Part shown: positions 5,101 through 18,864 of the stretch, piece by piece
Layout of the letters: each line of letters starts with the position of its first letter
How positions within the stretch are numbered: position 1 is the stretch's first letter
Origin: a virus
Virus record (IMG/VR): IMGVR_UViG_3300030109_006406
Span: 1-21,807 of that record
Strand: one strand, 5' to 3'
DNA length: 21,807 bases
The notes under the pieces: model-generated
Databases searched by the model: none
What the model saw: only the letters and a program-made list of their open reading frames with translations
Told to the model about the DNA's origin: nothing
Made by a program: the position numbers and the translations under genes

Positions 5101-5345
5101 ATGGGGCTTTGTTAGATCCAGATGTTAAAAATCAATTTATAAAAACCGCTAGTGAAATGTTTTTAGTACAAGTAGATAACTATGAAAATCAATACAAAAG
5201 TGAAGCAGCAATTGCTGGAAGATTATTTGGAGAAGAAAATATTGAAAATGCTATAATTCCAATGAAGGATTGGATTGATACAAATTTAATTAATGGTATT
5301 CAAGCTGATTTTAAATTTGATAATTATTTAAAAGGATTAGAATAA
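2145..5345 (+). CDS. Large putative virion/DNA-ejection protein with repeated short motifs and a coiled coil
   Basis: 1066 residues; the start overlaps the previous stop (TAATG) and AGGAG lies seven bases upstream. Residues 1 to about 420 look disordered and acidic, and contain two copies of MGSPPQGE (about residues 18 and 208), two of SVVREGE (about 138 and 154), and glycine-pair motifs ANGGYM, YAEGGLV and YASGGDV. Residues about 600-880 are a long Leu/Glu/Lys/Asn-rich helical region likely to form a coiled coil. The C-terminus has a conserved-looking module beginning FLDPNSVVREGEFATAENAG and ending in an NQYKSEAAIAGRLFG segment. I recognise it from large virion proteins of tailed phages. 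Likely an internal virion or ejection protein; a tail fibre or tape measure is less likely. No lysozyme or transglycosylase motif seen. Confidence 0.75.
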   Translation: MSVLNRSMFNKQIVNREMGSPPQGEKPSTTFFQKLFDGATGLGTGVGPYGDKEQGNILDLREYGAGVYDITDPQFVEFIKNYHQGDGTFEEGIQTYVNSLKTVERAEGSPIGGEQQSIGEQQGVMNALLEAIKNMSSDSVVREGELMNMIDPNSVVREGEEGFQYDFDIDGKNKTFSFDEKLSPSGIEAFRETYNITPTEMDPRLRQMGSPPQGEMIEEQVDVEDVGIMDGFSGGEEETAAAVLQEGERSKKEIDDADTYDELMRSVRGDDLSEAERRQELASVVGEKDAEETPDSVLALVQPVLQMLNEDTANTGIGQIEEGQEMANVMPTQAEATDAMAMMMPERPVGVANGGYMSSFPNQNLNTESLSASDNIDDRIMQNLQFERMAPGMMGYAEGGLVEQYASGGDVRRVPKYNTGTSSLGVTYDDTKLNEDQGFGLDILNNEEETEVEPYDTTTMDFLTQILSPEAGQSALKTKYDTNYKLFSEILGGQGPSKDEKIGEILTSVVSPLAFQYAQGADIQELLAAGTQAIGKISQKYSAQERKSESEIRSAALAQALKPAPDDPLVTVFLKDDPNTTENESVRSIQITTSQLKEDALRPIGEKLYSANSTALAIAELSKLESETKGIDIDTAIKEIEFEYADVLKNLEVQDKQALVDGRIITNSINSAIADNKPELLAAELKNINLTNIEKGIKNDTLRPTLEAELEKSLINIDIATQNLQQEIIETKYADELAQLSGAEKTARINELTQSYDFNEENNVLLLKQKKAEINNIVLTGKNLDLENEYKTLQNKYADEGFSLENESKMLNNLNQQQENIKISIENEYLPKEKKLNLNKLNEEILSLQENTYGSMITNEKNIIELNTYSQEKELELNKLLLENETLQYKLDNPTKDWQATKSIVDYKNKWVDSDIYKNTIERQSMLQDLVIASAQDSGPGDVSFIFKYMKFLDPNSVVREGEFATAENAGGIPAKIRNIYNKMKDGALLDPDVKNQFIKTASEMFLVQVDNYENQYKSEAAIAGRLFGEENIENAIIPMKDWIDTNLINGIQADFKFDNYLKGLE
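2194..2215 (+). repeat. 22-bp direct repeat, copy 1 (encodes MGSPPQG)
   Basis: Identical over 22 bases to 2764-2785. Both copies are in the same reading frame of the 1066-aa virion protein and encode MGSPPQGE. Around 2462 a looser relative (EGSPIGGE) follows the same pattern. Confidence 0.85.
2593..2624 (+). repeat. 32-bp direct repeat, copy 1 (encodes DPNSVVREGE)
   Basis: Matches 5002-5033 with one mismatch in 32 bases, and the last 24 bases are identical. Both copies are in frame in the same gene. A third copy of the peptide (SDSVVREGE, near 2555-2580) uses different codons, so the peptide itself appears to recur in addition to the DNA. Confidence 0.85.
2764..2785 (+). repeat. 22-bp direct repeat, copy 2
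   Basis: Second copy of the MGSPPQG-encoding repeat at 2194-2215, 570 bases downstream. Confidence 0.85.
5002..5033 (+). repeat. 32-bp direct repeat, copy 2
   Basis: Second copy of the DPNSVVREGE-encoding repeat at 2593-2624. This copy sits in the conserved-looking C-terminal module, the probable original location of the motif. Confidence 0.85.
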
Positions 5346-7948
5346 TGAGCGATGAATTTAGTACTTTAAAATCTTTAAAAAATGAAACAAAAAAAGTAAA
5401 ACAGCTTTTAAATTTAGAAAGATTTAATCTTCTTCCTCAAGATATTCAAATAGCTCTTAATGATGAAAGAGAAGCAGGAAGAATACCTAATCCTATGGAG
5501 CCTATTTCAATAGAAGAATTTGAAGATTATAAAAACATGATGTCTTTATTTATTGGAGATAAAATTGCATCTTCGGATGAAGATTTTGCTGGGTTGTGGC
5601 TATCTCAAGAAAAAGCTGCTGATTTTATTACAGATAAAGAAGTACAAAAAGAAATTGCAGCAATTGCAGGTGGAATAATTTTACCTACTTTAATTCCTGT
5701 AGCAGGACAGACAACTTTAGCTCCAAGAGTAGCGGCTTTTATTACTAAATATCCCAGATATGCAAAAACAATTGCAGCTTTTTTTGGTGGGGCAGGTGGA
5801 GCAGCTCCTTTTAGCGACAGTTATATAGAAGCTCTTGGATATGGAGCTAGAGAAGCAGCTGGAGAAGGAGTGTTTCAATTACTGTCTAAGTTTTTTGGAG
5901 GGAGGCTTATTAAATTATTTAGAGGAAATGCAGGTAAAAATTTAGAAGATGGTGCAGCCGCAGCACTAAAAATTGCAGAAGATGGTGGTGCAACTTTAAC
6001 TCCTGCTCGTTTATCAAATTCAAAAACAATTGATCTTTTAGAAAATTTTGCAGAAGTTTCTTTTTTTGGTGGACAAAGAATTAGAGAAGCAGGTGAAGTT
6101 GGAGTAGAGTCTGTTCAAAAAGAATTAACAAAATTTTTAAATAAAGAATTTATAGATAAATCTAATAAAACATTATTAGAAAGTGAACAAAAACTTGTTC
6201 AAAGCTTTTTAAAAAATGCTAGTCAAGCAGAAGTCGATGACATGCTAAAAGTATTTATTATGCAAGGAAGAGATTTTTATAAAACCTCTGTAAGTGCTGC
6301 ATACAAAGCATTAAATAAACAAGTTGCTTCAACAGTTGGAAGTCAAGCAAAGATTATAGATATTTCTAATCTTAAAAAAGTTTTAAAAAGAAATTTAAAT
6401 ATATATTATGGAAAAAATATTATTCCTAATGAAGGACCAATTAATTCTATTATAAAATATGTAGAAAAATTACCAGATAAAGTAGATTTTAATACAGCAA
6501 AAACTATACGAACTTTTTTATTAGGTAAAACAGGAGCTTTTCAAGTAGGTGGTACTACAGTAGATGATGCTGCTAAAGCTGTAGCAGGTGCTTTACAAAA
6601 TTCTGTTACAAAAAACATGGATAAAAGCATTAAAACTTTAGCTAATTCTGGTAAATATAGTAAAGAACAAATTAAAGCGATAGATCAGCTATATAAACAA
6701 GCTAATTCTCTTTTTAAAGAAGGTAAAGAAACTTTCAATACAAAATTTATTACAGGTTTATTAATTGGTGACTCTCAAGGAGTAACAAAATCTGGTTTAG
6801 ATATGACATCCGCTATTTATAAAAATTTTGTTAAAGCTGGAAGTCCTTCAAGAATAAAAGAATTTTATAAGTTACTTGATAATGGTGTTAAAAATAAAAT
6901 AATTACAACAGAAGCAGCTCAAACAATTAAAAATAAAGTTCAAGGACAATTTATTTTTGATATTATAGGGCCTAATACTGATGAAATTTCAGGACTTTTA
7001 AATGCTAAAAAAGTATTAAGTGAAGTAAGTGGTTTTAAAGGAAAAGGAAAAGGAATTGTTGATGCTTTATTTAAAGGAAACGAAAAAGCTTTAGGAAACT
7101 TTAAAAGATATTTAAATGCATTAAATTTAGCTCAGAAAAGAGGTATTGGTTCTCAACAAGGAGGATTAGCTTTATTTTCTGGACAAGTTAAAGCAGCAAG
7201 TACTATAGCAGGAGGATCAGGTATACTTGGTTTTAGTTTGTCTGGAGGAGACATTGGTAGTGGTGTTTCAGCTGCAACAACACTTACTCCATTAATTGTT
7301 TTAGGAGGGCCTGCAGTTATCTCAAGAATGTTTACAAATAAAAAATTTGTAAACAGTTTAATGAATATGCAATTAGCTAGATCTGGATCTAATCAATTTG
7401 GTAGAGCATTTACTACTTTTATTAATGATGGAATAACAGCTGGTTTTTTTGATATTGGTAATGCTGAAAAAGTAGTAATGGAAAATCAATCAGTCTTTGG
7501 AGACAGTGAAGATATGCAAAAAAGATTTCCATGGTTAAAAGATTTAGATTTAAATGATGAAAGTGATGAGGAGATTATAAATCCAGATATTAAATTTTTA
7601 AATGAATTTGAAAATCAAAGACAAGAAGAAATAAACGAAGTGGATACTAATCAAAGTTTTTTAGATGAAATTAATGGAGAAACAATAGTAGAAGAAACTG
7701 TTAGTGATAGACAACCGGGTTTAGAGGAAGCTGTTACAACAGAAGAAATTATTGATGTTCCTAAACCAAATACAGAAATGATGTCAGCAGAAATAATTCA
7801 ACCTCTTAGTAGCCCTGCTGGAATGCCTTTTGATCCATCTATGTCTACAACAGATAAACTAGAAGAAGTAGGTTTACCTGTGTTCGCTAAACACGGTGGA
7901 ATTATGTCTTTAATGGAACAAAGAAAACCAAAACAAATGGTGTCATAA
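5345..7948 (+). CDS. Large putative internal virion/DNA-ejection protein with hydrophobic segments
   Basis: 867 residues, starting at an ATG that overlaps the preceding stop (TAATG) with AAAGGA upstream. Hydrophobic Gly/Ala-rich stretches at about residues 103-121, 139-155 and 618-672 look capable of membrane insertion, as expected of proteins ejected into the envelope during infection by short-tailed phages. The middle (about 200-600) is Lys-rich and helical. The last 130 residues become acidic and disordered and end with LPVFAKHGGIMSLMEQ and a short basic tail. I recognise a closely similar ending (GG-I-x-SLM ... KQMV) from marine phage virion proteins. No peptidoglycan hydrolase motif is visible. 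The order of genes (347, 292, 1066, 867, 389 aa) fits a cluster of tail-associated and internal core proteins. Confidence 0.7.
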   Translation: MSDEFSTLKSLKNETKKVKQLLNLERFNLLPQDIQIALNDEREAGRIPNPMEPISIEEFEDYKNMMSLFIGDKIASSDEDFAGLWLSQEKAADFITDKEVQKEIAAIAGGIILPTLIPVAGQTTLAPRVAAFITKYPRYAKTIAAFFGGAGGAAPFSDSYIEALGYGAREAAGEGVFQLLSKFFGGRLIKLFRGNAGKNLEDGAAAALKIAEDGGATLTPARLSNSKTIDLLENFAEVSFFGGQRIREAGEVGVESVQKELTKFLNKEFIDKSNKTLLESEQKLVQSFLKNASQAEVDDMLKVFIMQGRDFYKTSVSAAYKALNKQVASTVGSQAKIIDISNLKKVLKRNLNIYYGKNIIPNEGPINSIIKYVEKLPDKVDFNTAKTIRTFLLGKTGAFQVGGTTVDDAAKAVAGALQNSVTKNMDKSIKTLANSGKYSKEQIKAIDQLYKQANSLFKEGKETFNTKFITGLLIGDSQGVTKSGLDMTSAIYKNFVKAGSPSRIKEFYKLLDNGVKNKIITTEAAQTIKNKVQGQFIFDIIGPNTDEISGLLNAKKVLSEVSGFKGKGKGIVDALFKGNEKALGNFKRYLNALNLAQKRGIGSQQGGLALFSGQVKAASTIAGGSGILGFSLSGGDIGSGVSAATTLTPLIVLGGPAVISRMFTNKKFVNSLMNMQLARSGSNQFGRAFTTFINDGITAGFFDIGNAEKVVMENQSVFGDSEDMQKRFPWLKDLDLNDESDEEIINPDIKFLNEFENQRQEEINEVDTNQSFLDEINGETIVEETVSDRQPGLEEAVTTEEIIDVPKPNTEMMSAEIIQPLSSPAGMPFDPSMSTTDKLEEVGLPVFAKHGGIMSLMEQRKPKQMVS

Positions 7949-9118
7949 ATGGGTTGGTTCAGTAATTTTTTTGGGGGAAGCACTAAAAAAGAACCTTCAT
8001 CTTCTTCAGGTTCATCACAACCTAATTCTCCTCAATCTCAATCAATTAAAGAATCAAATGAAGCTATTCAAAATCTAGTAGACAACAAAGATAAATATCA
8101 AAATAATTTAATAGCTGGAGATAATCGCAACGAATATCAAATGAGAATGCAAGCTCTTAAAACAGGGCAAACTTTTGATCCTTCTAAATTTACATTTACA
8201 GATAGAAAAGGAAATCAAATTGATCCAGGTTCTGATAATAAAACTATAGGAAATGCAGGTGGAGCTGAAGCTTATAAAAAAAGATTTCCTATAACTTCTG
8301 GTATTCAAAACTTAGCAGGCGCCGCTTCTAATCTTATTCCCGGTGTAGGAATGGCAAAAGGAATTTTAAAAGTTTTAGGTAATTTTGGTAAAGGAACAAA
8401 AAATGTTTTTAATCAAGCAGTAACAGGTATTACAGATTCTAATGCTTATAATGATTTTAAAAACTTAGTTACTAAAGATGAAAAGATTCCAACAGATATG
8501 GGAACACGAATGAGCAGTATGGATCAAGCAGATGCTGATGCAGCTACTTTAAACATGGCTGATATTTCTGGTCCTTCTATGTCAACAGACATTATAGAAA
8601 TAAAAGATCAAAAAGTTAAAACAAAAGATAACCTTGATAAAATAAATAATGCTCAAAAAACTTTAAACGAAGCTTTAGATATACAAAACTTTAGAAGAAT
8701 TATAGATAATCCTTCTGCTATTGAAACATTACCTATAAATTTTAAATCTACTGTTGATACATTACTTCAAAACAATCAATTAAATTCTAGTGATTACTTA
8801 AAATCACAACAGTTATTAAGAGATAAAAGTACTCCTGTAGGGCCATTTATTAATGGATATAATAATGCAGGGATTACTAATGCTCTTCCAAATAGTAATC
8901 AAGTAGCAACTAATTTGTTTAATAATTTTAAACCTACTTTAGAATCTATTTCTAATTTTAATGAATCATTAAGTGATGGAAAAGGTTTTGATGTAAACTT
9001 AAATGATCAAACTTTTGAATATAACAAACCCATGCTTGGGGGTAACTTAAATTTTGGCATTGATAATAGTAGCAGTAGCCCAACTTTTGGTATTAACTTT
9101 AGTAAATCCCTTGGATAG
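7949..9118 (+). CDS. Putative virion protein with aromatic N-terminus (MGWFSNFFGG)
   Basis: 389 residues. The ATG directly follows the TAA of the preceding gene with no good ribosome site, so translation is probably coupled. The N-terminus MGWFSNFFGG is short, aromatic and amphipathic, followed by a Ser/Pro/Gln-rich linker to about residue 35. About 115-147 is a Gly/Ala hydrophobic stretch (GIQNLAGAASNLIPGVGM). The rest is Asn/Ser/Asp-rich. The C-terminal part is Phe/Gly/Asn-rich with repeated FNFGI/TFGINF-like segments, suggestive of beta structure. I cannot assign a family. Its position at the end of the virion operon and its composition suggest an internal or tail-tip protein. Confidence 0.6.
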   Translation: MGWFSNFFGGSTKKEPSSSSGSSQPNSPQSQSIKESNEAIQNLVDNKDKYQNNLIAGDNRNEYQMRMQALKTGQTFDPSKFTFTDRKGNQIDPGSDNKTIGNAGGAEAYKKRFPITSGIQNLAGAASNLIPGVGMAKGILKVLGNFGKGTKNVFNQAVTGITDSNAYNDFKNLVTKDEKIPTDMGTRMSSMDQADADAATLNMADISGPSMSTDIIEIKDQKVKTKDNLDKINNAQKTLNEALDIQNFRRIIDNPSAIETLPINFKSTVDTLLQNNQLNSSDYLKSQQLLRDKSTPVGPFINGYNNAGITNALPNSNQVATNLFNNFKPTLESISNFNESLSDGKGFDVNLNDQTFEYNKPMLGGNLNFGIDNSSSSPTFGINFSKSLG

Positions 9119-9320
9119 AGATTTTAATTTAAGGAATGCAATTTGGTTTGCAATGATCCTCATTAGTGCTGGCAGTGTCTATGGAATGATGTCACAGAAA
9201 GTTTCGGCTTTGGAAACAAAACAATCACAGTTAGAAATGATAATACTCCAAGACATACCAGAAATAAAAGAACGAGTGATACGACTTGAAGTATTACTTG
9301 AAAGAATTCTAGAAAACTAA
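9111..9320 (+). CDS. Small single-span membrane protein with C-terminal helix; holin-like candidate
   Basis: About 69 residues if started at TTG 9111, which overlaps the end of the upstream gene by eight bases. The start is uncertain. AAGGA at 9131-9135 is best spaced for an in-frame ATT at 9141, and the first in-frame ATG (9153) would cut into the membrane segment. The product begins (L)DRDFNLRNAIWFAMILIS. It has one predicted transmembrane helix at about residues 10-28, then a charged amphipathic helix (KVSALETKQSQLEMI and ERVIRLEVLLERILEN) likely to form a coiled coil. This architecture is seen in XhlA-like and other small phage holins and membrane accessory proteins. Location at the end of the late operon fits lysis. 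There is no direct functional motif, so holin is only a candidate. Confidence 0.5.
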   Translation: MDRDFNLRNAIWFAMILISAGSVYGMMSQKVSALETKQSQLEMIILQDIPEIKERVIRLEVLLERILEN

Positions 9321-9323
9321 TTT

Positions 9324-9476
9324 TTATTTTTTTACCTTTCTTACATTAATTATTAAACCAAGTTTGGTCATATCATAAGATACTTTTATTTTTTCATTAG
9401 GTTTTATATCTTTGCTTTCTATTTCAATTAACCTATCTGTTTCTTTTTTTAACAGATCCTTATATTTATTTTCCAT
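9324..9476 (-). CDS. 50-aa charged hypothetical protein
   Basis: A short ORF starting at ATG 9476 with GGGAG seven bases upstream; that site overlaps the last codons of the preceding gene (stop at 9479), two bases away. The product begins MENKYKDLLKKETDRLIEIE, is rich in Lys and Glu, and ends in an IIxVRKVKK basic tail. No family recognised. It is the last gene of the minus-strand replication operon and ends three bases from the stop of the converging plus-strand operon. A strong ribosome site and tight packing are the reasons to call it real. Confidence 0.6.
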   Translation of the reverse strand: MENKYKDLLKKETDRLIEIESKDIKPNEKIKVSYDMTKLGLIINVRKVKK

Positions 9477-9478
9477 AA

Positions 9479-9886
9479 TTAAGCTCCCATTAATTGTGAT
9501 GTTGAAATAAAGTAGTGCTGTATTTTTCTTGTTCTACAATCCCAAGTGTCAAACACTGTTTCTTTATCTATAAAAACTAAATGGCGAGATACAGCTACAA
9601 GAGCAGATTTTTTAAACTCCCAATTACGAATAGAGATAGTTCTTTTATTTTTGTCTCTAGGAGTTTTTTGTTTTATCCAACCATGCTCAGCTAAAAATAT
9701 TTCATAAGTTTGACGATGATTAGGAAACATACCTGTGGTCTTAGATAGTTCACATAAATCTTCCCAAACTTTTTGATAAGGTAATTTTGTAGCTAGAGTA
9801 CATGCTCTTATAACACAGTCCCCTAAGTTAGATTTTTTTTGAAATGGAGTATTTGATCTTCCTCCATCGTGAAATTTATATTTCAT
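9479..9886 (-). CDS. Papain-like (cysteine peptidase-fold) phage protein
   Basis: 135 residues from ATG 9886, with AAAGGA six bases upstream. The sequence has FHDGGRSN, then GDCVIRACTLAT with Cys24 at the start of a helix, SRHLVFI with His102, and VFDTWDCR with Asp113. This Cys - His - Asp order and the surrounding pattern (DCVxRAxxxA ... xxRHxxxxxx ... DTxD) match small phage proteins that look like the papain/C39/transglutaminase fold. The residues for a catalytic triad are present, so thiol-peptidase or amidase activity is possible, but no substrate is indicated. It follows DNA polymerase on the same strand with a 64-base AT-rich gap holding a possible promoter. The function in replication or host takeover is unknown. 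Confidence 0.65.
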   Translation of the reverse strand: MKYKFHDGGRSNTPFQKKSNLGDCVIRACTLATKLPYQKVWEDLCELSKTTGMFPNHRQTYEIFLAEHGWIKQKTPRDKNKRTISIRNWEFKKSALVAVSRHLVFIDKETVFDTWDCRTRKIQHYFISTSQLMGA

Positions 9887-9921
9887 TATTTTCCTTTCTT
9901 TTAAATATTATACTATACTAT

Positions 9922-9942
9922 ATTATATAATATTAAAGTCAA
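9922..9942 (-). promoter_or_regulatory. TTGACT-N9-TATAAT element, possible internal promoter
   Basis: On the minus strand TTGACT (9942-9937) is followed by nine bases and TATAAT (9927-9922), then by tandem TATAG-type steps reaching another TATAAT at 9912-9907. The element lies in the 64-base gap between the DNA polymerase stop and the 9886 start. The nine-base spacing is too short for a normal sigma70 promoter; TATAGT at a 19-base spacing is the nearest conventional alternative. Similar TTRACW-N9/10-TATAAT arrangements occur at 17014-17034 and 20272-20293. Confidence 0.35.
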
Positions 9943-9950
9943 GAAAATTT

Positions 9951-11813
9951 TTAAGTCGCTTCTCCCCACGATTTTCCTACATCGCAATCAACCTTACTTG
10001 GAACCGATAAAGAAATACAATTTTGCATGATCTCCATAATTTTATTTTTTGTTTCTTCAGAGCCATCAAAACTTAAAGTAAGTTCATCATGAATTTGTAT
10101 TAAAGGAGTTAAACCTTCTTTATATAATTCTATCATTGCTTGTTTTGTTTGATCAGCAGCCGACCCTTGTATTAATCTATTCAATGCTTTGTATGTTCCT
10201 GCACGTTGTAAATGATGATGTTTACCATATTTTATTTCTGCTTGATCTTTTGGGAGTGCTTTAAATACGCCAAAAGTGGTTGGTTCCCACAATTCAAAAC
10301 GACATTTTCTACCTTTTAATGTTGAGACGTAACCTTCGCTATTGGCGTAGTTTGAAACCCTCGTTGCTAAATCTTTAACAAAAGGGACTCGACTATTGTA
10401 AGCTGATAAAATTTCTTTTGCAACAGTAACATCTACTTGCAATTCATTGGAAAGTTTGTTAACGCCCATACCATAAAACAAGCCTAAATTAATAGTTTTG
10501 GCTTGATCCCTTTCAATTTCAGCTATGTCAGCAACGATATTATGGAAATCTGCATTAGGATTTTTTTGATATTCTTCCACAATCGATTGAGATCCTTGGC
10601 ATCCAAGTTTAAAAGCATAGTGTGACGCGATCCGTGGTTCTTGTTGAGAGTAATCAAAACTACCCCAGGTCTCCCCTTCATCTGGTAAAAATAATCCTCT
10701 TATCTGTTTTTTAATTTCTTTATTACGAGAAGGTAATTGCTGTAAATTTGGATTAGAATAACTTAGTCTTCCTGATACTGTTCCAGATTGGCCATCCCTC
10801 ATTTGATGAATGCTTGCATGAATTCGTCCTGTTGATCCATGATGAATAATTGTATCTAAAAAAGTAGATTGAACTTTATTAAACTCTCTTGCACTCTGTA
10901 TTTTTTTAGCAATAGGATGTTTATGATGTAATAAAAAATCTTTGGTAAAGCTAGGGGCATTAGTTTTTTCTGTTCTTGGATATTTTATTTTGAGTTTATC
11001 AAAAACTTTCGCCACACTTGCTGCAGCCCAAACATCAACTGCAATACCCGAGTCTGCCAATATTTCATCAAGTATCTTCTTCTCTGTATTCTTAAAACTT
11101 TTTTTATGACTTGTTGCTTTTTCCACATCGACGCGTACTCCTTTTTTAATCATTTCAAAAATAATAGGAACTAAATCCATCTCTAATTTGTAAACACTTT
11201 TTAAACTTTCTTTTTCAATAATAGGTCTCATATGATGATATAATCGTAAAGTTAAATCAGCATCTTGCTCTGCATAGGTTCCTACAAAGATAGCAGGGAG
11301 TTTATACATTTCTGTTTTAGGATTAACTCCAAATTCTATTGCAGCTTGTTTTAATAAATTTTCATCTTTGTATTCTCCTAACATATCTTTACCAACAGCA
11401 TTAAGTGCATAAGAAAATTTATTCTCATTAATGATGGGAGCCATGATCATTGTGTCAACAATTGGTCCTTTGACATCAATTCCTTCAGCATATAACCAAC
11501 CTAAGTCATAAAGAGCATTATGAGCCACTTTTATAGCATTATTTTGCATCAATTTTTTAAACCATGCCATAACGCGCCTACGATCCCAATTGAAGCCATT
11601 TTCGTGTCTTATGGGGTAATACCCCTTCCAACCATCTACAGCGACAGCCACGCCTATGATATGGCCTCTTTTTTTCGTCCACCCTGGTCCACTGGTCTTT
11701 AATTCAGGGTCATAGGTCTCTAAATCAAATGCAATGACTTTTGCATCGGATAAGTCAGGTAAATCATGTGGAGGGATCCATTCCGATTGAGTAAAACCAA
11801 AATTATGTTGCAT
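9951..11813 (-). CDS. polA: Family A DNA polymerase with 3'-5' proofreading exonuclease
   Basis: 620 residues from ATG 11813, with AAAGGAG nine bases upstream. The N-terminal DnaQ-like exonuclease shows Exo I D30-x-E32 (AFDLET), Exo II HNALYD (D103) and Exo III YAEQD (D184). The polymerase domain shows motif A FDYSQQEPR (D387), motif B R435-DQA-K439-TINLGLFYG and motif C IHDE (D576). A SGRLSYSNPNLQQLPSR block precedes motif A, as in PolA enzymes. There is no N-terminal 5'-3' exonuclease, as usual for phage PolA. The position equivalent to E. coli Phe762 is Leu443. All catalytic residues are present, so the enzyme should be active and is the replicative polymerase of this phage. Its start overlaps the stop of the DUF6378-like gene (TAATG), so the two are translationally coupled. 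Confidence 0.97.
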   Translation of the reverse strand: MQHNFGFTQSEWIPPHDLPDLSDAKVIAFDLETYDPELKTSGPGWTKKRGHIIGVAVAVDGWKGYYPIRHENGFNWDRRRVMAWFKKLMQNNAIKVAHNALYDLGWLYAEGIDVKGPIVDTMIMAPIINENKFSYALNAVGKDMLGEYKDENLLKQAAIEFGVNPKTEMYKLPAIFVGTYAEQDADLTLRLYHHMRPIIEKESLKSVYKLEMDLVPIIFEMIKKGVRVDVEKATSHKKSFKNTEKKILDEILADSGIAVDVWAAASVAKVFDKLKIKYPRTEKTNAPSFTKDFLLHHKHPIAKKIQSAREFNKVQSTFLDTIIHHGSTGRIHASIHQMRDGQSGTVSGRLSYSNPNLQQLPSRNKEIKKQIRGLFLPDEGETWGSFDYSQQEPRIASHYAFKLGCQGSQSIVEEYQKNPNADFHNIVADIAEIERDQAKTINLGLFYGMGVNKLSNELQVDVTVAKEILSAYNSRVPFVKDLATRVSNYANSEGYVSTLKGRKCRFELWEPTTFGVFKALPKDQAEIKYGKHHHLQRAGTYKALNRLIQGSAADQTKQAMIELYKEGLTPLIQIHDELTLSFDGSEETKNKIMEIMQNCISLSVPSKVDCDVGKSWGEAT

Positions 11814-12091
11814 TATTTTTTCTCCTTTGTAGTTCGTTCATTTATCTCCCCGGCAATAGCTCCATAAGCAGCTAAGTCAATGTAATTATCTTTTTTATGT
11901 TGATTCATTAAACGTGCAATTTTTACTAAGGCCATGCAGATAGCAACATCATGAGCAGTAATTTTTGTTTTTAAAAACACAGACCATAAGTCAGCAATGT
12001 TTTGATGGTTTTTTAATTTATCACCATAATCATTTTGTCTATCTCCCCCAATTAATTTTTTTGCTTCTTCTAATAATTTTTGAGAAATCAT
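11813..12091 (-). CDS. DUF6378-like small phage protein
   Basis: 92 residues from ATG 12091, with AAGGA seven bases upstream; the start overlaps the helicase stop (ATGA) and the stop overlaps the polymerase start (TAATG). The sequence contains GGDRQNDYGDKLKNHQNIA, then an ITAHDVAICMALVKIARL helix and a DNYIDLAAYGAIAGE helix. This is the (G)DRxxDYG ... W ... DxxxxMxxxKxxR ... DNxxDxAGY pattern of the DUF6378 family, common beside phage replication genes and reminiscent of all-alpha nucleotide-handling folds. The biochemical role is not established. Its position between helicase and polymerase suggests a replication or nucleotide-pool function. Confidence 0.8.
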   Translation of the reverse strand: MISQKLLEEAKKLIGGDRQNDYGDKLKNHQNIADLWSVFLKTKITAHDVAICMALVKIARLMNQHKKDNYIDLAAYGAIAGEINERTTKEKK

Positions 12092-13578
12092 ATTAGATAT
12101 CCTTCTGGTTGTTGTGATTCTACAATATATAAATTTTGTTTTGCTCTTGTTACAGCTACATAAAAAACTCTATGTTCATCATCTGGATTTTTCATATAAG
12201 ATCTGTACACTAATCTTCCTAAATCTAATAATACAACAACATTATCACATTCACCTCCTTTAGCTTGATGAATAGTAGATACTCTTATTCTAGGTTCTCC
12301 TTTTATATTTTCCCCAATTCTTTCTAATCTTCTTAAATAAGTAATATCAAAGTCACTAACTTTATCCATTACTTCATGCCAATACCCATCAACAAGTAAA
12401 CCATGATTGTTTTTTAAATCTTCTAAAGTAAACAAAGATTCTTCATCTTCCCCTTTAAAAGTTTTCCCTCCTCTTTTAATCCCTGTACCTGTTTTAATTT
12501 TGTTGTATAAATTTTTTACTTCTAATAAAGAAACTACAGACCCACTTTTTAATTGTTGCCAAGTTTCAATTGCTTCTAATGTTGATGGAACTATAGGACG
12601 ATGATCACCTCTACCATACCAAAAACCTCTATCTTTTAAAAAAGATTCTATTTTTTCATTTCTTATTTTTTTAGTTCTTCCTAGTAGCAGCCAATTACCT
12701 GTCGATAAATCTATATGTCTTAGATCAGCAATATAGCTTATTTTTCCTATTTCTTCTTTTGGCTGCCAATTTTTTTCTCGTCTATTTTTAACTCTAGAAA
12801 TAATACGATTAGCTAACTTATAAACTTTTTGAGGACATCTATAAGATTTATCGAGTACAGTAACATCTCCTTTTAAATTTATAAAACGATCCACATCAGC
12901 ACCTGACCAACGAAAAATTGCTTGATCATCATCACCAGCTATATATGTTTCTTTACTGTTTTTAATTAACTTACTTACCATATTGTACTGTATGCGAGGC
13001 ATATCTTGAGCTTCATCAATAAATAAGACATCAAACTGTGTAGAAAATGTGTCATTTGTGTAATCAATAATCATGTCAGTAAAATCAAATAAATTATTTT
13101 CTTCCTTATAATCTTTTATACATCGATCTAAATAATCAAGTTTAGTCCAATTGATAGTTTCTCCACTAGTATTCCATGCATCCTCTAAAGAAATATCTTT
13201 TAACCTAGACATATTAATTAAATTAACAAACTGATGATTAGAGTTTGAATAAATTGAATCATCATTAGTATCAAAAACTAAATCAAAACCAATTAACTCA
13301 GATAATTCTTTCCAATGTTTTGATTTCATTAAATTTTCTTTATTAACAGGTAAGTGTTTGTAAGCAAAACTATGAAGAGTTCTAAAATGTATTAAATCAT
13401 CTTTACTTGCTTGAAATTTATCTCTTGCGCGATCCCTAGCTTCATATGCAGCTTTCTTAGAAAAAGAAAAAAATCCAATTTTATCCCAAGCTATTCCTTC
13501 TTCTTTTTTCTGTCGACAAATGTCTAATAGTTTAGTGGTTTTACCTGTACCTGGTGGACCTAAAATTATTTTTATCAT
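12088..13578 (-). CDS. UvrD/Rep-like superfamily 1A DNA helicase
   Basis: 496 residues from ATG 13578, overlapping the primase stop in an ATGA. Motif I is GPPGTGKTT at residues 7-15, Ia-like FSFSKKAA at about 37-44, motif II LFIDEAQD at 185-192, motif III GDDDQAIFRWSGAD at 215-228, a YRCP segment at 246-249 typical of motif IV, motif V STIHQAKGGE at 434-443 and motif VI VAVTRAK at 474-480. All hallmark residues of a 3'-5' SF1A helicase are present. It is shorter than bacterial UvrD/Rep (about 670-720 aa) because subdomains 1B/2B are reduced, as in phage versions. It lies between primase and polymerase and probably unwinds DNA for replication or recombination. No hexameric DnaB-type helicase is in the window, so it may be the main replicative helicase. 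Confidence 0.93.
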   Translation of the reverse strand: MIKIILGPPGTGKTTKLLDICRQKKEEGIAWDKIGFFSFSKKAAYEARDRARDKFQASKDDLIHFRTLHSFAYKHLPVNKENLMKSKHWKELSELIGFDLVFDTNDDSIYSNSNHQFVNLINMSRLKDISLEDAWNTSGETINWTKLDYLDRCIKDYKEENNLFDFTDMIIDYTNDTFSTQFDVLFIDEAQDMPRIQYNMVSKLIKNSKETYIAGDDDQAIFRWSGADVDRFINLKGDVTVLDKSYRCPQKVYKLANRIISRVKNRREKNWQPKEEIGKISYIADLRHIDLSTGNWLLLGRTKKIRNEKIESFLKDRGFWYGRGDHRPIVPSTLEAIETWQQLKSGSVVSLLEVKNLYNKIKTGTGIKRGGKTFKGEDEESLFTLEDLKNNHGLLVDGYWHEVMDKVSDFDITYLRRLERIGENIKGEPRIRVSTIHQAKGGECDNVVVLLDLGRLVYRSYMKNPDDEHRVFYVAVTRAKQNLYIVESQQPEGYLI

Positions 13579-15188
13579 AAAGTCAAATCTAAATCATCCA
13601 TGTTTTCTCCTCCTAATACCTCATCTTCTTTTTTAATTTTATTATTTTTAATTGTTGTAGGAGTAGGAATTTCTACAATAGATTTTTCAAACGAAGGTAT
13701 AACCCAAGCTCTTGTTTGTATTTTTCTAACAGATACAGTTATATTTGTTCCTCCAATATCTTTTAGACGTTGAACAATCCATACTCGTTGAACTTTAAAA
13801 TTTTTACTATTTTCTAACCATCGTGATAAATCAACAAGTCTGAAATAAGTAGGAGTAGCTGTAAATGTTTTTTTATTTTTAACAAACTCTTTAGTAGTCT
13901 CTTCATCAGTAAATGTTTTTTGCATTTCTAATTCATCCATAGAAAAAGATTCTCCTCTTGCTAAACAGAATTCTTTTAAATAATCTAAAAATTCTCCTAC
14001 CTTAGAAACATCCGAAGGCACTTCATCTATTTTTATATTTTCAAATAACATAGATACAATTTCATCCCAATCTTCTGCTTTAACTCTAGGAACATATATT
14101 TTTAATTGTTGACCAACCATTTTTCTAAATAAAGGATGAGCATATAAAATACCTAAATCATCAAACTCAACTCTTTTATCTCCTACATTTAAAAACCAAA
14201 TAGGAGGTACACTATCTAAAACAGATAACTCACTATAAGTTGGATGATCTATTGTAGATTGACCTATGCCATGTTTTCTTAATTTACATAAAGATTTTTG
14301 ACAAACCGATACAATAGGTTGGTCACTACATCGATAAGAATATTTAGGATTTCCATCTGGTTTATTAGATCTAACTTGCTTTTGTATGATAGTAACTTCA
14401 TTAGCATTTAAAGGAGGATCCATATAATCCCGGTTATAGTTTTCTAATAAATCTTCCCAATCATCTGGATTAGCTTTGCGATAAAAAATTCCTATATTAA
14501 ATAATCCGTTGTTACGCGTACCTTCAGGAAACCCTTGTGTTGTTAAAACTTGTAAACATGGAGGACCTTCGGCTATGACATCTTGTTTTATCTTGATTGC
14601 AATTTTACTGATATCATCACAAACATATTTGTCATATAAATTAAAGAACTCGTCAAGAGAAGCACCATCACCATTATCAAGAAACGCGTACCGGGTATCA
14701 CCATGATAAGGAAGGTTCAACCAAGAACCTGTGTCTTTTTCGTTGGCTAGTTGAGTTTGTTTAGGGAAAACTTCTGTATGTGCATATCCGATGTAAGAAG
14801 CAATCTCTTTAAGTTTTTGTTGAAAGATAGCTGCCGACTGTGGAATTTTGGAAAAAAGAAAAATATGAGCCCCAAAAGATTTGGATGAGCACATTATTAG
14901 TGGTAATTCATATTCTCGTATTTTGGATAATATTTTTTTATGATCCAGTGGGTACTCGTCAATATCAATACATCCCCAAGTACAAGTTGCATCGTCACGA
15001 ATGGGAACAATTCCTAAAGCAGGCATCTTTCCATCAAGATGATCTTGATACATTTGTAAGGTAGGTGGTTCGTGTTTCGTGAACATTTTACCATCGCGTT
15101 TTCCATTTATTTTTGTTTCTGAATAGCGATATTCACCATGAGCACGGTCAAGACCTGTAAATATATTTTTAAATTTTTCTGCTTTCAT
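13575..15188 (-). CDS. Archaeo-eukaryotic-type (AEP) primase / primase-polymerase
   Basis: 537 residues from ATG 15188. The N-terminal domain shows the AEP core: CIDIDEYP with D75-x-D77 as metal ligands, CSSKSFGAHIFLF (101-112; the S-x-G-x-H strand), EVFPKQ and GSWLNLPYHG (154-163). An EGTRNNGLFNIGIFYRKANP block (222-241) then resembles the PriCT-type region, and Cys287, Cys296 and Cys301 (RCSDQPIVSVCQKSLC) probably bind zinc, perhaps with another ligand. The C-terminal 200 residues resemble no family I can name. The enzyme would lay primers for the phage polymerase. No Shine-Dalgarno site precedes the ATG, but FTGLDRAHGEYR directly after it looks like the conserved N-terminus. By eye the first half has higher GC than the last third. 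It follows a perfect hairpin at 15205-15235. Confidence 0.85.
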   Translation of the reverse strand: MKAEKFKNIFTGLDRAHGEYRYSETKINGKRDGKMFTKHEPPTLQMYQDHLDGKMPALGIVPIRDDATCTWGCIDIDEYPLDHKKILSKIREYELPLIMCSSKSFGAHIFLFSKIPQSAAIFQQKLKEIASYIGYAHTEVFPKQTQLANEKDTGSWLNLPYHGDTRYAFLDNGDGASLDEFFNLYDKYVCDDISKIAIKIKQDVIAEGPPCLQVLTTQGFPEGTRNNGLFNIGIFYRKANPDDWEDLLENYNRDYMDPPLNANEVTIIQKQVRSNKPDGNPKYSYRCSDQPIVSVCQKSLCKLRKHGIGQSTIDHPTYSELSVLDSVPPIWFLNVGDKRVEFDDLGILYAHPLFRKMVGQQLKIYVPRVKAEDWDEIVSMLFENIKIDEVPSDVSKVGEFLDYLKEFCLARGESFSMDELEMQKTFTDEETTKEFVKNKKTFTATPTYFRLVDLSRWLENSKNFKVQRVWIVQRLKDIGGTNITVSVRKIQTRAWVIPSFEKSIVEIPTPTTIKNNKIKKEDEVLGGENMDDLDLTL

Positions 15189-15204
15189 AAATATAAATAA
15201 TAAT

Positions 15205-15235
15205 TAGGAGCATAAATTGTGAGATTATGCTCCTA
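15205..15235 (-). terminator. Perfect 11-bp hairpin in the replication operon (attenuator or terminator-like)
   Basis: Arms TAGGAGCATAA and TTATGCTCCTA (15205-15215 and 15225-15235) pair perfectly around a nine-base loop. It begins 18 bases after the stop of the 274-aa gene. On the minus strand the 3' side continues AATTATTATTTATATTT straight into the primase ATG at 15188. The tail is U-rich but broken by A residues, so complete termination is doubtful. Partial termination, RNA processing or a protein-binding dyad are alternatives. The 5' arm contains AGGAG, which is locked in the stem. Confidence 0.6.
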
Positions 15236-15253
15236 TCTCAATAAAAAGAGTAA

Positions 15254-16078
15254 TTAAGATCCTAAAACGCTACTATCAGCATTAGGTGTAACATCTTTTA
15301 GATCTTCATCATTATCATTTAGAGCCTCTGGTGTTGGATCAATAGATCCAGAACTAACAAGCTCATGAAAGTGCTTTGCTTCCTCCACAATGTAAGATGG
15401 ATTCTTTAAATCGTTAACCGATTTTTCTAAAGTAATATTCCATCCCCACCAATCATTCTTTTTATTTTGCTCTTGTACACCTTTCATTTTGTACACATTA
15501 GCAAACATTGGAAGAGTGACTAGACTACCATTACCAGATTGTATTTTTTGATTCATCATCATTGTATTCCAGTAACGAGATTTTTTGTATTGAGTTTTCT
15601 GCATAATAATTTGGCATCGCTCAAACGATCCATCATCATTCATTCGTAAAACAAAATACTCCGCCGTTCTCACTATGTAAGTAGGGCTAATAGCACCATT
15701 AATCATGTAATGGTCTTCACCATCCGCTCCACGCGTTAACGGTGGAATTTCGTCTGGCTTATAAATTTTTACAGGTGCTCCTGTTCCCTCACCAAGAGGG
15801 CTCCATTCTACACCTCGAACTCGAAATGCACATGGCACTACAAGAACTTCTTTGTAAAAATCTTTCGTAACAGAATTAAAAATATCTCCTTGCTCTAGCC
15901 CTTCAACAAACTTAGCATTAGATTTTTTAACTTCTGGAGTTTGAGAACTAGCAATCTTTAAGAATGGGATTGCCATTTCTTGTGCATCAACATTTTCAAA
16001 CCCTGCACCTGCAAAATTTGAGAAGTCAATAACATTAGTCGATACTTCGCTTTTCTTTTTTTTCGATACATCGTTCAT
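15254..16078 (-). CDS. Conserved phage replication-operon protein, possibly single-stranded DNA-binding
   Basis: 274 residues from ATG 16078, with AAGGAAAA upstream and only two bases after the previous stop. The N-terminus is Lys-rich (VSKKKKSEV). The core has IPFLKIASSQTPEVKKSN, EGLEQGDIFNSVTKDFY, a VVPCAFRVRGVEWSP strand and a NDWWGWNITLEKSV segment. I recognise this pattern from uncharacterised proteins lying next to primase and polymerase in many marine phages. The last 25 residues are strongly acidic (NDNDEDLKD), like the acidic tails of T7 gp2.5-type ssDNA-binding proteins, although there is no terminal aromatic residue. No other ssDNA-binding candidate is visible in the operon. The ssDNA-binding role is an inference. 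Confidence 0.55.
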   Translation of the reverse strand: MNDVSKKKKSEVSTNVIDFSNFAGAGFENVDAQEMAIPFLKIASSQTPEVKKSNAKFVEGLEQGDIFNSVTKDFYKEVLVVPCAFRVRGVEWSPLGEGTGAPVKIYKPDEIPPLTRGADGEDHYMINGAISPTYIVRTAEYFVLRMNDDGSFERCQIIMQKTQYKKSRYWNTMMMNQKIQSGNGSLVTLPMFANVYKMKGVQEQNKKNDWWGWNITLEKSVNDLKNPSYIVEEAKHFHELVSSGSIDPTPEALNDNDEDLKDVTPNADSSVLGS

Positions 16079-16080
16079 GG

Positions 16081-16644
16081 TTATTTTCCTTTTTTTATTT
16101 TAACTTTGTTACCCATAAAAACGCTAAATGTTTCTATAGGAAGCTCTTTGCCCGAGTTTATTTGTTCACCAATAAAGGCATTTAAGGTCATCGGCTCGAC
16201 CTTTCGTTTTTGGTCAGGAGCTAAACCACTTTGCTCTAAGTCATTTATTAACTTAGAGGCTTGATCGTTATCTCCCTTACCAAACCTTATAGACACAATG
16301 TTTTTAATTAGCTCTCCATGATTATTTTCTTCGAGCCATTTAAAAGCTTCCGCTTCTTTATCACGAGTAATACTGCCTTTAAAAAAAGGTTTAAAACTAA
16401 CAGCATCACCATTGGTCAATTTAATTTCTTTAACTCCTCGTTGTTCCATGAGCTGCACAATGGCATCATTCATTTGTTGGAGTTCTTGTTTTTTTGTTTT
16501 TGCTTGTTGCTCTAATGCTAATATCTCACTTTCTATTTGTAAGAATTTATTAGAAGCTTCTGAAACATCTTTTACTTCTGATATTTCAACTGTTTTATTT
16601 TCTTCTTCTGGTAGATAGTTTGTAAAATCAACTTTCTCTGTCAT
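16081..16644 (-). CDS. Phage hypothetical protein with N-terminal coiled coil
   Basis: 187 residues from ATG 16644, chosen because AAAGGA lies six bases upstream; an in-frame ATG at 16659 has no such site. Residues about 25-65 (KFLQIESEILALEQQAKTKK and on) form a probable coiled coil. A compact part follows with VKEIKLTNGDAVSFKPFF, FKWLEENNHGELIKNIVSI and RKVEPMTLNAFIGEQIN. I recognise this architecture (coiled coil, then KPxFxxSI ... AFxWLxxNxxGxLIKNxVS) from proteins in replication clusters of tailed phages, without known function. The start overlaps the previous gene by 17 bases and the stop is two bases before the next start, so all three belong to one operon. Confidence 0.65.
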   Translation of the reverse strand: MTEKVDFTNYLPEEENKTVEISEVKDVSEASNKFLQIESEILALEQQAKTKKQELQQMNDAIVQLMEQRGVKEIKLTNGDAVSFKPFFKGSITRDKEAEAFKWLEENNHGELIKNIVSIRFGKGDNDQASKLINDLEQSGLAPDQKRKVEPMTLNAFIGEQINSGKELPIETFSVFMGNKVKIKKGK

Positions 16645-16981
16645 AGTTATTCCTTTCATGAATGTCTATCTGTATGGGGTAATATGTATAAGTACGTCGA
16701 TCATATTTTAATACTTTATATTTTCCACGATTATTATCTGCTGCAATAGAACATGCTAATCCAATCATAGAAGGATCACCAATCAACAATAAATAATCAT
16801 TGTCATTAAAGTCTTTTAAAATATTTTTCGCTTTACGCACCGCGGGAGCCGGGGATAACATTATTTGTTTTCCTTCTTCAAAGACAGGAACTAGTGTCCC
16901 AAAACCTTGAGCACTAATAACATTAAACTTAGACACCTCTTGGATGACATATACATTACCTTTATTTTCTGAGTCTTTCAT
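16628..16981 (-). CDS. Conserved phage hypothetical protein (YLLLIGDP motif)
   Basis: 117 residues from ATG 16981; a GTG at 16993 gives four more residues, and AGAAAG just before the ATG is only a modest site. The protein contains VYVIQEVSKFNVISAQGFG, DNDYLLLIGDPSMIGLACSIA and NNRGKYKVLKYDRRTYTYYP. I recognise the series VYVVQE ... (D/N)DYLLLxGDPxxIGxA ... NxGxxKxLKWDRxxxxYxP from small conserved proteins of many tailed phages; their function is unknown to me. It is the first gene of the minus-strand replication operon, directly behind the divergent promoter region, so it is probably expressed early. Confidence 0.75.
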   Translation of the reverse strand: MKDSENKGNVYVIQEVSKFNVISAQGFGTLVPVFEEGKQIMLSPAPAVRKAKNILKDFNDNDYLLLIGDPSMIGLACSIAADNNRGKYKVLKYDRRTYTYYPIQIDIHERNNYDRES

Positions 16982-17013
16982 CTTTCTAAACACCCTATAT
17001 TATTTATATTTCC

Positions 17014-17034
17014 ATTATACAAGAAAAATGTTAA
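17014..17034 (-). promoter_or_regulatory. TTAACA-N9-TATAAT element in the divergent promoter region
   Basis: The 60-base gap between the minus-strand operon (start 16981) and the plus-strand SNF2 gene (start 17042) contains TATAAT on the minus strand at 17019-17014, a perfect -10. At a normal 17-base spacing the -35 is poor (TTTTAT). A TTAACA (17034-17029) lies only nine bases upstream of it. The -10 sits 33 bases before the first codon, so it is the likely start of the replication operon. I see no clear plus-strand promoter in the same gap. Confidence 0.45.
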
Positions 17035-17041
17035 TGATAAA

Positions 17042-18529
17042 ATGATTTTTTTAATCGCAGAAAGTATGAAAAAATATAAATATAGTTTTAAAACAAAACC
17101 TTATGCCCATCAATTAGCTGGTATGGGTGCTATGGTAAACCATTTTTCTAAAGGAGAAAAAGAATTCGCTCTTCTTATGGAGATGGGTTGTGGAAAAACT
17201 AAAGTCCTTATTGATGGATCTGCTTTTCTTTATGACAATGGTTACATTGTTGGGTTACTTGTTATTTGTCCTAATGGAGTTAAAGGAACCTGGGTTAAAG
17301 AAATTGAAACACACATGCCAACACATGTTGATCGCAATGTTATTGTATGGACAGGTCAAAAAACAAAAAAGCATGAAGAAGAATTACAAACGTTATTTAT
17401 TACAGAGCCAGCTAAAGTTCATTTAAATATTTTAATAATGAACGTTGATGCTTTTGCAACAGACAGAGGAAAAAAATTTGCTGATAGATTTTTAATGACA
17501 CGTCAAGCAATGATGGTTGTCGATGAAAGTACTGTTATTAAAAACTCAACAGCACTTCGTACTAAATCAATTACTAAGCTTGGTAACTTAGCAAGGTACC
17601 GTGTTATCATGACAGGCTCACCAATTACTAATTCTCCAGAAGATCTTTACTCTCAATGTAATTTTTTAAATCATGAGCTGCTAGGCTTTAGTTCTATTTA
17701 CACTTTTCGCGCTCGGTATTGTCAACTACAACGACTCTCTTTTGGTGGAAGATCTTTTAACAAAGTAACAGGATATAAAAACTTAGAAGAGTTAAATTAT
17801 AAACTACAAAAATTTTCTTATCGAGTATTGAAAAAAGATGCTTTAGATTTACCCCCTCAAGTGTGGGTCAAAAGAATTGTTCCTATGACAACAGAACAAC
17901 TTGATGCATATATGCAAATGAAGCGAACAGCTTTAGTGCAGCTCAAGGAAGAAACATTGACGACTACGTCAGTGCTCGCCCAGTTAATTCGACTTCATCA
18001 AATTGTTTGTGGTCATATGGCAACAGATGATGGTAAAGTATTATCGTTGCCAAATAATCGTATCAAAGAATTGTTGGCTATTCTAGAAGAGCACGGTGAT
18101 AAAGCGATTATCTGGGCGAATTATCGTCATGACATCCAGGAGATAGAAAAAACATTATCAAAGAAATATGGATCGGGGTCCGTGGTCACTTATTATGGTG
18201 ACACTCCTCAGAATGTCAGACAAGAATACATTGAACGTTTTCAAACTGATCCTAAAACAAAATTCTTTATTGGCCAACCGATGACCGGGGGACGTGGTAT
18301 TACATTGACAGCAGCTAGTCTATCAATTTTTTATTCTAACAATTATGATTTAGAAATTAGAGAACAAGCAGAAGCACGTAATCACCGTATTGGTACAGCT
18401 AATAAAGTAACATACATAGATCTTGTTTCTCAAGGAACAGTAGATGAAAAAATTATTTATGCTCTTAGAAATAAAATAAACTTAGCTACATCGGTGTTAG
18501 CTGAAGAAGTAAGAAAATGGTTAATATGA
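17042..18529 (+). CDS. SNF2-family (superfamily 2) DNA helicase/translocase
   Basis: 495 residues from ATG 17042; ATG 17066 is an equally possible start, and neither has a strong ribosome site. Motifs in order: YAHQ (Q-motif-like, 21-24), MEMGCGKT (Walker A, 46-53), VICPNGVKGTW (Ia, 74-84), VVDEST (motif II, 159-164; DEST rather than DEAH), MTGSPITNSPEDLYSQ (motif III, 190-205), IIWANYR (motif IV, 356-362), TGGRGITLTAA (motif V, 415-425) and QAEARNHRIG (motif VI with arginine finger, 442-451). Both RecA-like domains are complete. This is the compact SNF2 type seen in phages, without accessory domains. Such motors remodel protein-DNA complexes or help replication and recombination. It is transcribed divergently from the replication operon, and its last 13 bases overlap the zinc-knuckle gene. 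Confidence 0.93.
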   Translation: MIFLIAESMKKYKYSFKTKPYAHQLAGMGAMVNHFSKGEKEFALLMEMGCGKTKVLIDGSAFLYDNGYIVGLLVICPNGVKGTWVKEIETHMPTHVDRNVIVWTGQKTKKHEEELQTLFITEPAKVHLNILIMNVDAFATDRGKKFADRFLMTRQAMMVVDESTVIKNSTALRTKSITKLGNLARYRVIMTGSPITNSPEDLYSQCNFLNHELLGFSSIYTFRARYCQLQRLSFGGRSFNKVTGYKNLEELNYKLQKFSYRVLKKDALDLPPQVWVKRIVPMTTEQLDAYMQMKRTALVQLKEETLTTTSVLAQLIRLHQIVCGHMATDDGKVLSLPNNRIKELLAILEEHGDKAIIWANYRHDIQEIEKTLSKKYGSGSVVTYYGDTPQNVRQEYIERFQTDPKTKFFIGQPMTGGRGITLTAASLSIFYSNNYDLEIREQAEARNHRIGTANKVTYIDLVSQGTVDEKIIYALRNKINLATSVLAEEVRKWLI

Positions 18530-18787: not shown

Positions 18788-18794
18788 AATTCTG

Positions 18795-18838
18795 AGTGAA
18801 GTTATGTTTTTTCCTCCCAATATTATCATAGCTTCACT
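18795..18838 (+). other. 12-bp inverted repeat with 20-base loop
   Basis: AGTGAAGTTATG (18795-18806) pairs with CATAGCTTCACT (18827-18838), with a single G-U wobble. It lies in the gap between the stops at 18750/18787 and the next start at 18865. There is no U-tract after the stem, so it is not a typical terminator. It could be a processing or attenuation element. Confidence 0.4.
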
Positions 18839-18864
18839 TGGATCTTTGTATTAAGATAAATGCA

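Follow-up and report, generated by a model that had tools for sequence, protein, structure and literature searches.

A conserved hairpin downstream from gp34-like phage genes is a probable terminator-derived 3′-end element

What role does a perfect hairpin play in the only wide gap of a phage replication operon? The question arises from a virus record of 21,807 bases (33% GC), which was analyzed over its whole length and is called the window below. On its minus strand, genes for Pam3-type gp32-, gp33-, and gp34-like proteins are followed by those for an AEP-TOTE primase, a UvrD-like helicase, a DUF6378 protein, and a family A polymerase. Junctions within this run overlap or measure 2 nt. The sole exception is the 65 nt from the gp34-like stop codon (15256–15254) to the primase ATG (15188–15186), and the initial annotation was right to describe the hairpin in this gap as splitting the operon. 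The features of the locus are as follows.

16628–16993, minus strand: Pam3 gp32-like gene (PF23992), the first of the run.
16081–16659, minus strand: Pam3 gp33-like gene (PF23984), 2 nt ahead of the gp34-like gene.
15254–16078, minus strand: Pam3 gp34-like gene (PF23977, phrog_2402), whose product has a possible OB fold.
15237–15250, minus strand: small upstream hairpin P0 (CTC/GAG in the window), just 3′ of the gp34 stop; weak and only suggestive.
15205–15235, minus strand: the hairpin, defined by folding and covariation, with its 5′ arm at 15235–15225 (TAGGAGCATAA), loop at 15224–15216, and 3′ arm at 15215–15205.
15189–15204, minus strand: U-rich linker of 11 T and 5 A in 16 positions, an interrupted U-tract with no Shine-Dalgarno motif.
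13575–15188, minus strand: primase (AEP-TOTE domain PF22548, phrog_21866).
9951–13578, minus strand: remainder of the run 3′ of the primase, with genes overlapping start to stop.
12088–13578, minus strand: UvrD-like helicase.
11813–12091, minus strand: DUF6378 protein.
9951–11813, minus strand: family A DNA polymerase.

The two arms of the hairpin (15205–15215 and 15225–15235) are 11 nt each and are 100% complementary around a 9-nt loop, with four GC pairs among the 11. These coordinates and the perfect 11-bp stem agree with the initial annotation, as do the 18 bases that separate the upstream stop codon from the hairpin. The hairpin also precedes the primase ATG as described, at a distance of 16 bases rather than 17. 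The stop-to-start gap is predicted to fold with a free energy of −17.3 kcal/mol, compared with −8.0 ± 2.4 kcal/mol for shuffled sequences (z −3.8), and none of 200 shuffles folded as well. The plus-strand fold of a wider 121-nt stretch is less marked (z −1.8). In a first-order Markov simulation of 100 runs, only 0.17 repeats with arms of at least 11 nt are expected per window, and pure chance was rejected as the origin of the hairpin for this reason. The same simulation gives 0.03 per window when at least five GC pairs are also required (the window stem has four). Sixteen same-strand gene junctions were called in the window, and a scan of them with the hairpin rule detected a hairpin only between the gp34-like and primase genes.

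One other perfect inverted repeat of at least 10 bp with a loop of 3–15 nt is present in the window. This AT-rich repeat at 7329–7355 has 11 bp and a 5-nt loop, lies inside an 867-amino-acid ORF (5345–7948), and is probably due to chance. A separate recurring hairpin is found on the plus strand at 18791–18842, after genes for an SNF2 helicase and a Zn-finger-like protein, in the window and in four relatives (L028, L043, L061, and L066). These five hairpins were detected without a sequence rule and differ in their stems, and TTTCCTCC (on the opposite strand, GGAGGAAA) occurs in each of the five loops. Searching with this motif returned 16 distinct hairpins, all of which contain it by design. 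Several relatives show, by eye, a sigma70-like TTGNAA-16-TATAAT sequence 3′ of this hairpin. The hairpin may act as a terminator, as an operator, or as an anti-Shine-Dalgarno RNA.

The hairpin between the gp34-like and primase genes is widely conserved. A primase search of IMG/VR yielded 23 loci, of which 21 include the junction (L022 and L023 have no primase start), and a hairpin was recognized by eye in all 21. Searching with gp34 gave 62 loci, many of which share contigs, and in every one the primase gene comes next with a hairpin in the gap. The gp34-search loci, the window, L017–L021, and three named phages make up a set of 71 loci with 43 distinct sequences, and all 71 gaps contain a hairpin. 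When Pan1, R5C, and HTVC023P, which are outside this set, are appended by hand, the count is 73 of 74 gp34–primase gaps; the 5-nt gap of HTVC023P has no hairpin. Two contigs outside the 71 loci (L008 and L011) also carry one, as judged by eye. Among 21 marine loci and pieces, in which gaps of up to 400 nt were folded, hairpins occur at 12 of 12 gp34–primase junctions. Of 243 other same-strand junctions, taken without regard to width, nine have a hairpin, and four of these nine are one further recurring element. A covariance model of the junction, based on the weak-U sequences described below, detected nothing beyond this junction at E ≤ 1 across 250,537 bases; it recovers six of nine given junctions, missing L084, L017, and L021 and scoring L061, L075, and L066 weakly. 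In L080 and L082, the gp34–primase hairpin has lengthened to 22 perfect pairs, and its 5′ arm looks like the greater part of the L081-type hairpin, a pattern that an inverted duplication would give.

Stem sequences vary among these junctions (TAGGAGCATAA, TAGGGGCATAA, AGGGGCGAAT, TAGAGGGCGAAT, AAGGGGGC, GGGCGG, and others), and G exceeds C in the 5′ arm of 42 of the 43 distinct gaps. Covariation in relatives, which the initial annotation had proposed as a check, was examined in a MAFFT alignment of 18 hand-picked distinct weak-U junctions, from which strong-U sequences were left out. MAFFT offsets the L033-type rows by one column, and this was kept. In this alignment, 93.7% of cells pair, versus 85.8% in column shuffles, and pairing falls to 40%–64% when the partner side is slid by one to three columns. 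Changes on both sides are seen at six of the 11 pairs, so the proposed check is borne out. The covariation score is higher than in all 500 shuffles, and a measure of further pair types shows no excess (441 of 500 shuffles are as high). RNAalifold returns the same stem from the alignment, with eight of its pairs. Conservation and covariation together indicate that the pairing is very likely under selection.

To which of its two neighbors does the hairpin belong? Junctions downstream from gp34 were collected from 22 named phages, most of them chosen among the matches listed for 500 matching records (gp34 was identified by tblastn in L095 and L111). Of the 22 upstream proteins, 20 were run in Pfam and all 20 match PF23977. 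The genes 3′ of gp34 differ among these phages and include hypothetical genes near a ligase gene, a Dda-like helicase, an annotated SSB, a RecD-like helicase, and the primase. A hairpin follows gp34 in 21 of the 22 if G-U pairs are allowed, with the provision that for M6, MW2, Ab19, and RHph_I65 the script selects one among several possible stems. Under a strict rule (at least six Watson–Crick pairs, four GC), hairpins are found at 18 of 22 gp34 junctions (3.2 expected from shuffles) versus 14 of 100 other same-strand junctions (4.4 expected). Restricting the comparison to gaps of at least 25 nt leaves 18 of 21 versus 14 of 41.

The 16 phages in which a gene other than primase follows gp34 all have the hairpin with G-U pairs allowed, and 13 have it under the strict rule. 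Conversely, three primase genes do not have gp34 directly upstream; two of these have no hairpin, and the 428-nt gap of the third does not permit a judgment. In JeffCo and VLCpiS6a the gp34 and primase genes are separate, and the hairpin stands 3′ of gp34. Its persistence before varied genes and its location in these two phages assign the hairpin to the 3′ end of the gp34-like gene and not to the primase.

The gp34-like protein itself offers a modest clue to function. Its AlphaFold2 model has a pLDDT of 68. Foldseek returned no match for this model at E ≤ 0.001, and a sequence-profile search of solved structures gave none at E ≤ 1. In VIA-align the best neighbor is the phiC31 integrase-RDF fusion chain 9teh (Z 5.1, trimmed; 124 aligned residues, rmsd 5.6), which ranks ahead of the SSB and RPA proteins and is a weak lead on the function of PF23977. 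Next come many SSB and RPA OB folds (Z 2.4–3.7), and an OB fold is therefore possible for the modeled protein. The label "ssDNA-binding-like" that the initial annotation gave to this gene draws weak fold support from these scores.

A hairpin directly behind a gene calls to mind an intrinsic terminator. The window hairpin is a stable GC-rich stem-loop that stands just 3′ of a stop codon (18 nt) on the strand of the gene, and this position is conserved. What the window lacks is a U run directly after the stem, since the tail is TAATTATTATTTATA with a T-score of 1.94. The U-tract of the window's own clade is interrupted, with TAATTATTATTTATATTT beyond the outermost GC pair. In sister clades, a stem of GGGGGC/GCCCCC is followed by TTTTTTTATTTT, and this element is, by its sequence features, a textbook intrinsic terminator. 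Strong U-tracts (e.g., GCCCCCTTTTTTTATTTT; T-score 4.4–5.7) are present in 18 of the 63 rows of a gp34 tree that left out L062, L086–L088, L018, L020, L025, and L090, and the other 45 rows have weak tails. On this tree, strong tails (T-score of at least 4) require three changes of state.

Tails also differ among the named phages. T-scores exceed 4 in the unrelated phages WFC, Kyle, and BcepF1, and the record of Escherichia phage vB_EcoM_WFC annotates a terminator at the hairpin after its gp34 homologue. Scores are below 1 in five named phages, Pan1, Ab19, JeffCo, VLCpiS6a, and DSL-LC04, apart from those whose stem is ambiguous. At least four T residues occupy the next eight bases after only eight of the 18 strict named hairpins, although in some of these hairpins the first T residues pair with A and so were counted in the stem. 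Judged from sequence alone, the window hairpin is a poor terminator. It was not in the output of a terminator scan, which takes loops of 3–8 nt only, whereas the window loop has 9 nt. The linker at 15189–15204 is near-invariant among the closest relatives while the stems vary, and the 11 T residues among the 16 nt before the window primase compare with a mean of 3.55 (range 1–9) at 20 other starts checked.

The distance from the hairpin foot to the primase ATG is 7–23 nt in the 43 distinct sequences. In the named phages the next gene mostly begins 8–32 nt from the foot (58 nt in M6, via a more upstream stem). A promoter between hairpin and primase was rejected because the spacing in the window is only 16 nt. 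A promoter scan over 9000–18500 placed no site within 15189–15235, and the 35 sites it called in total compare with 43.8 in shuffles. Because the spacing is too small for a promoter, the downstream genes need either read-through or a promoter inside gp34. Rfam gave no match above the gathering score in the window, and identity of the hairpin with an Rfam RNA was rejected on this basis.

We consider it reasonably probable that the hairpin is a leaky 3′-end element, derived from a terminator and belonging to the gp34-like gene, and that it governs how much gp34-like protein is made relative to the replication enzymes. In evolutionary terms, the hairpin would be homologous by position to an intrinsic terminator that is retained immediately 3′ of the gp34-like gene, within a co-directional replication operon, in many tailed phages. 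RNA polymerase reading gp32, gp33, and gp34 would meet the hairpin, where some transcripts would end or would be trimmed back to the hairpin and protected. The remainder would read through into the primase, helicase, and polymerase genes. The result would be much gp34-like, putatively ssDNA-binding protein and fewer replication enzymes. Because the U-tract of the window clade is interrupted, termination is expected to be weak. An excess of the gp34-like product would suit an ssDNA-binding protein, if that label, which comes from a moderate model, is apt. We infer termination at the hairpin, its efficiency, its ratio-setting purpose, and the role of gp34 from these comparisons.

If this proposal is correct, then phages that differ widely in host and gene order have kept a transcript-end element with a single gene family, whose function is unknown. 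These phages would be predicted to need more of the gp34-like protein than of the replication enzymes. The range from strong to interrupted U-tracts would then form a natural series for how phages tune read-through.

A less likely explanation, though one that deserves consideration, is that the hairpin protects or defines a processed 3′ end. Host exonucleases would trim transcripts back to the stem and the gp34 mRNA would be shielded, with no termination at the hairpin itself in the window clade. Retention of the stem in the 45 tree rows with weak tails, the stable fold of the gap, and the presence of the hairpin 3′ of gp34 whatever gene follows all agree with this possibility. However, sister groups and some unrelated phages retain an uninterrupted U-tract, and the leader in the window remains unusually T-rich. 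An 11-bp stem is too short for an RNase III site, and such a site was rejected on stem length.

Regulated translation of the primase is very unlikely. By this account the hairpin would mask or expose the region around the primase start, and the AGGAG in its 5′ arm would be the ribosome site. The hairpin foot is near enough to the ATG to invite the idea, and the initial annotation correctly described the primase ATG as having no Shine-Dalgarno site: The 16-nt leader, ATTATTATTTATATTT, contains no such motif. The same is true of all 43 distinct primase leaders, whereas a Shine-Dalgarno motif precedes 11 of the window's 21 starts and 84 of the 148 starts that automatic ORF calling gave in relatives. 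As had been pointed out, the single AGGAG within the gap does lie in the 5′ arm, but it is ∼40 nt from the primase ATG and occurs in the window only among the 43 distinct gaps, most relatives having GGGGC, GAGGG, or AAGGG. It was rejected as a sequestered primase ribosome site because of this distance and lack of conservation, so the stem holds no functional ribosome site of the kind that a sequestering switch employs. Moreover, the hairpin remains where an unrelated gene follows, and several such gp34 phages have a Shine-Dalgarno-like site after the hairpin, as judged by eye. The missing Shine-Dalgarno at the primase is real and conserved, and it needs no hairpin to explain it. Of the ways in which the initial annotation imagined the hairpin setting the ratio of upstream to downstream products, attenuation is the best reading, and regulated translation finds no support.

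We likewise give little credence to a regulated attenuator in the weak-U clade, in which P0 and a pyrimidine-rich leader would compete with the main stem, and read-through would depend on a bound protein or on ribosomes that have reached the gp34 stop. The pairs of P0 in relatives include ACTCTA/TAGAGT, CTCTA/TAGAG, and ACCT/AGGT, and the sequences differ on both sides among leaders. Thirty-four leaders had sufficient length for folding. A P0-like hairpin of at least −2.1 kcal/mol stability is predicted for 17 of the 27 with a weak U-tract and for none of the seven with a strong one; four further strong-U leaders were too short to include. However, only six of the 34 fold better than their own shuffled versions (p < 0.05), P0 is absent from L033–L035 and L051, and the main stem is far more stable. 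It is a similarly distant prospect that an ancestral terminator became such an attenuator, with P0, the main hairpin, and the near-invariant UUAUUAUUUAU linker forming a sensor bound by free gp34-like, possibly OB-fold, protein. If true, then the gp34-like protein would adjust the amount of replisome mRNA from its own operon.

Least credible is a DNA-level site that one strand would expose close to the primase gene, for instance to allow single-strand priming or to start replication: The location among replication genes and the strand asymmetry of the arms in the marine set would suit it, but the hairpin stays with gp34 when another gene follows or the primase lies elsewhere, and the U-tracts point to RNA.

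How does the proposed leaky element compare with known systems? Among the titles and abstract openings of the literature consulted, no description of this gp34 3′ element was found. Translational autoregulation of T4 gp32 relies on an element that lies before gp32's own gene. It resembles the sensor arrangement in that an ssDNA-binding protein would be tied to its own mRNA; here, in contrast, the element is downstream, and any protein binding to it is hypothetical. Like the intrinsic terminators of phage operons, the hairpin is a GC-rich stem directly after a gene, on the same strand, with a U-rich tail, and it is canonical in sister phages. Unlike them, the window element has a tail interrupted by A residues in place of the defining U-tract, and the next gene starts only 16 nt on.

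The annotated terminator of WFC occupies the same place after the same gp34 gene family. For PB1-like phages, 15 terminators are predicted in KT28 and 12 in KTN6, with their places given in a figure only (PMC4440721), and the gp34 junction may already be among them. These WFC and PB1-like terminators differ from the window element in that a gene other than primase follows, and they are predictions only. In T4-like phages, predicted terminators downstream from gene 32 are reported to be conserved in five of six genomes (PMC1524935). The gp34-like product is only a putative ssDNA-binding protein by its model, and the comparison is one of position rather than of kinship between gp32 and the gp34-like protein. 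Even so, the T4-like arrangement would follow the same position logic, with a predicted terminator placed after the gene for an ssDNA-binding protein.
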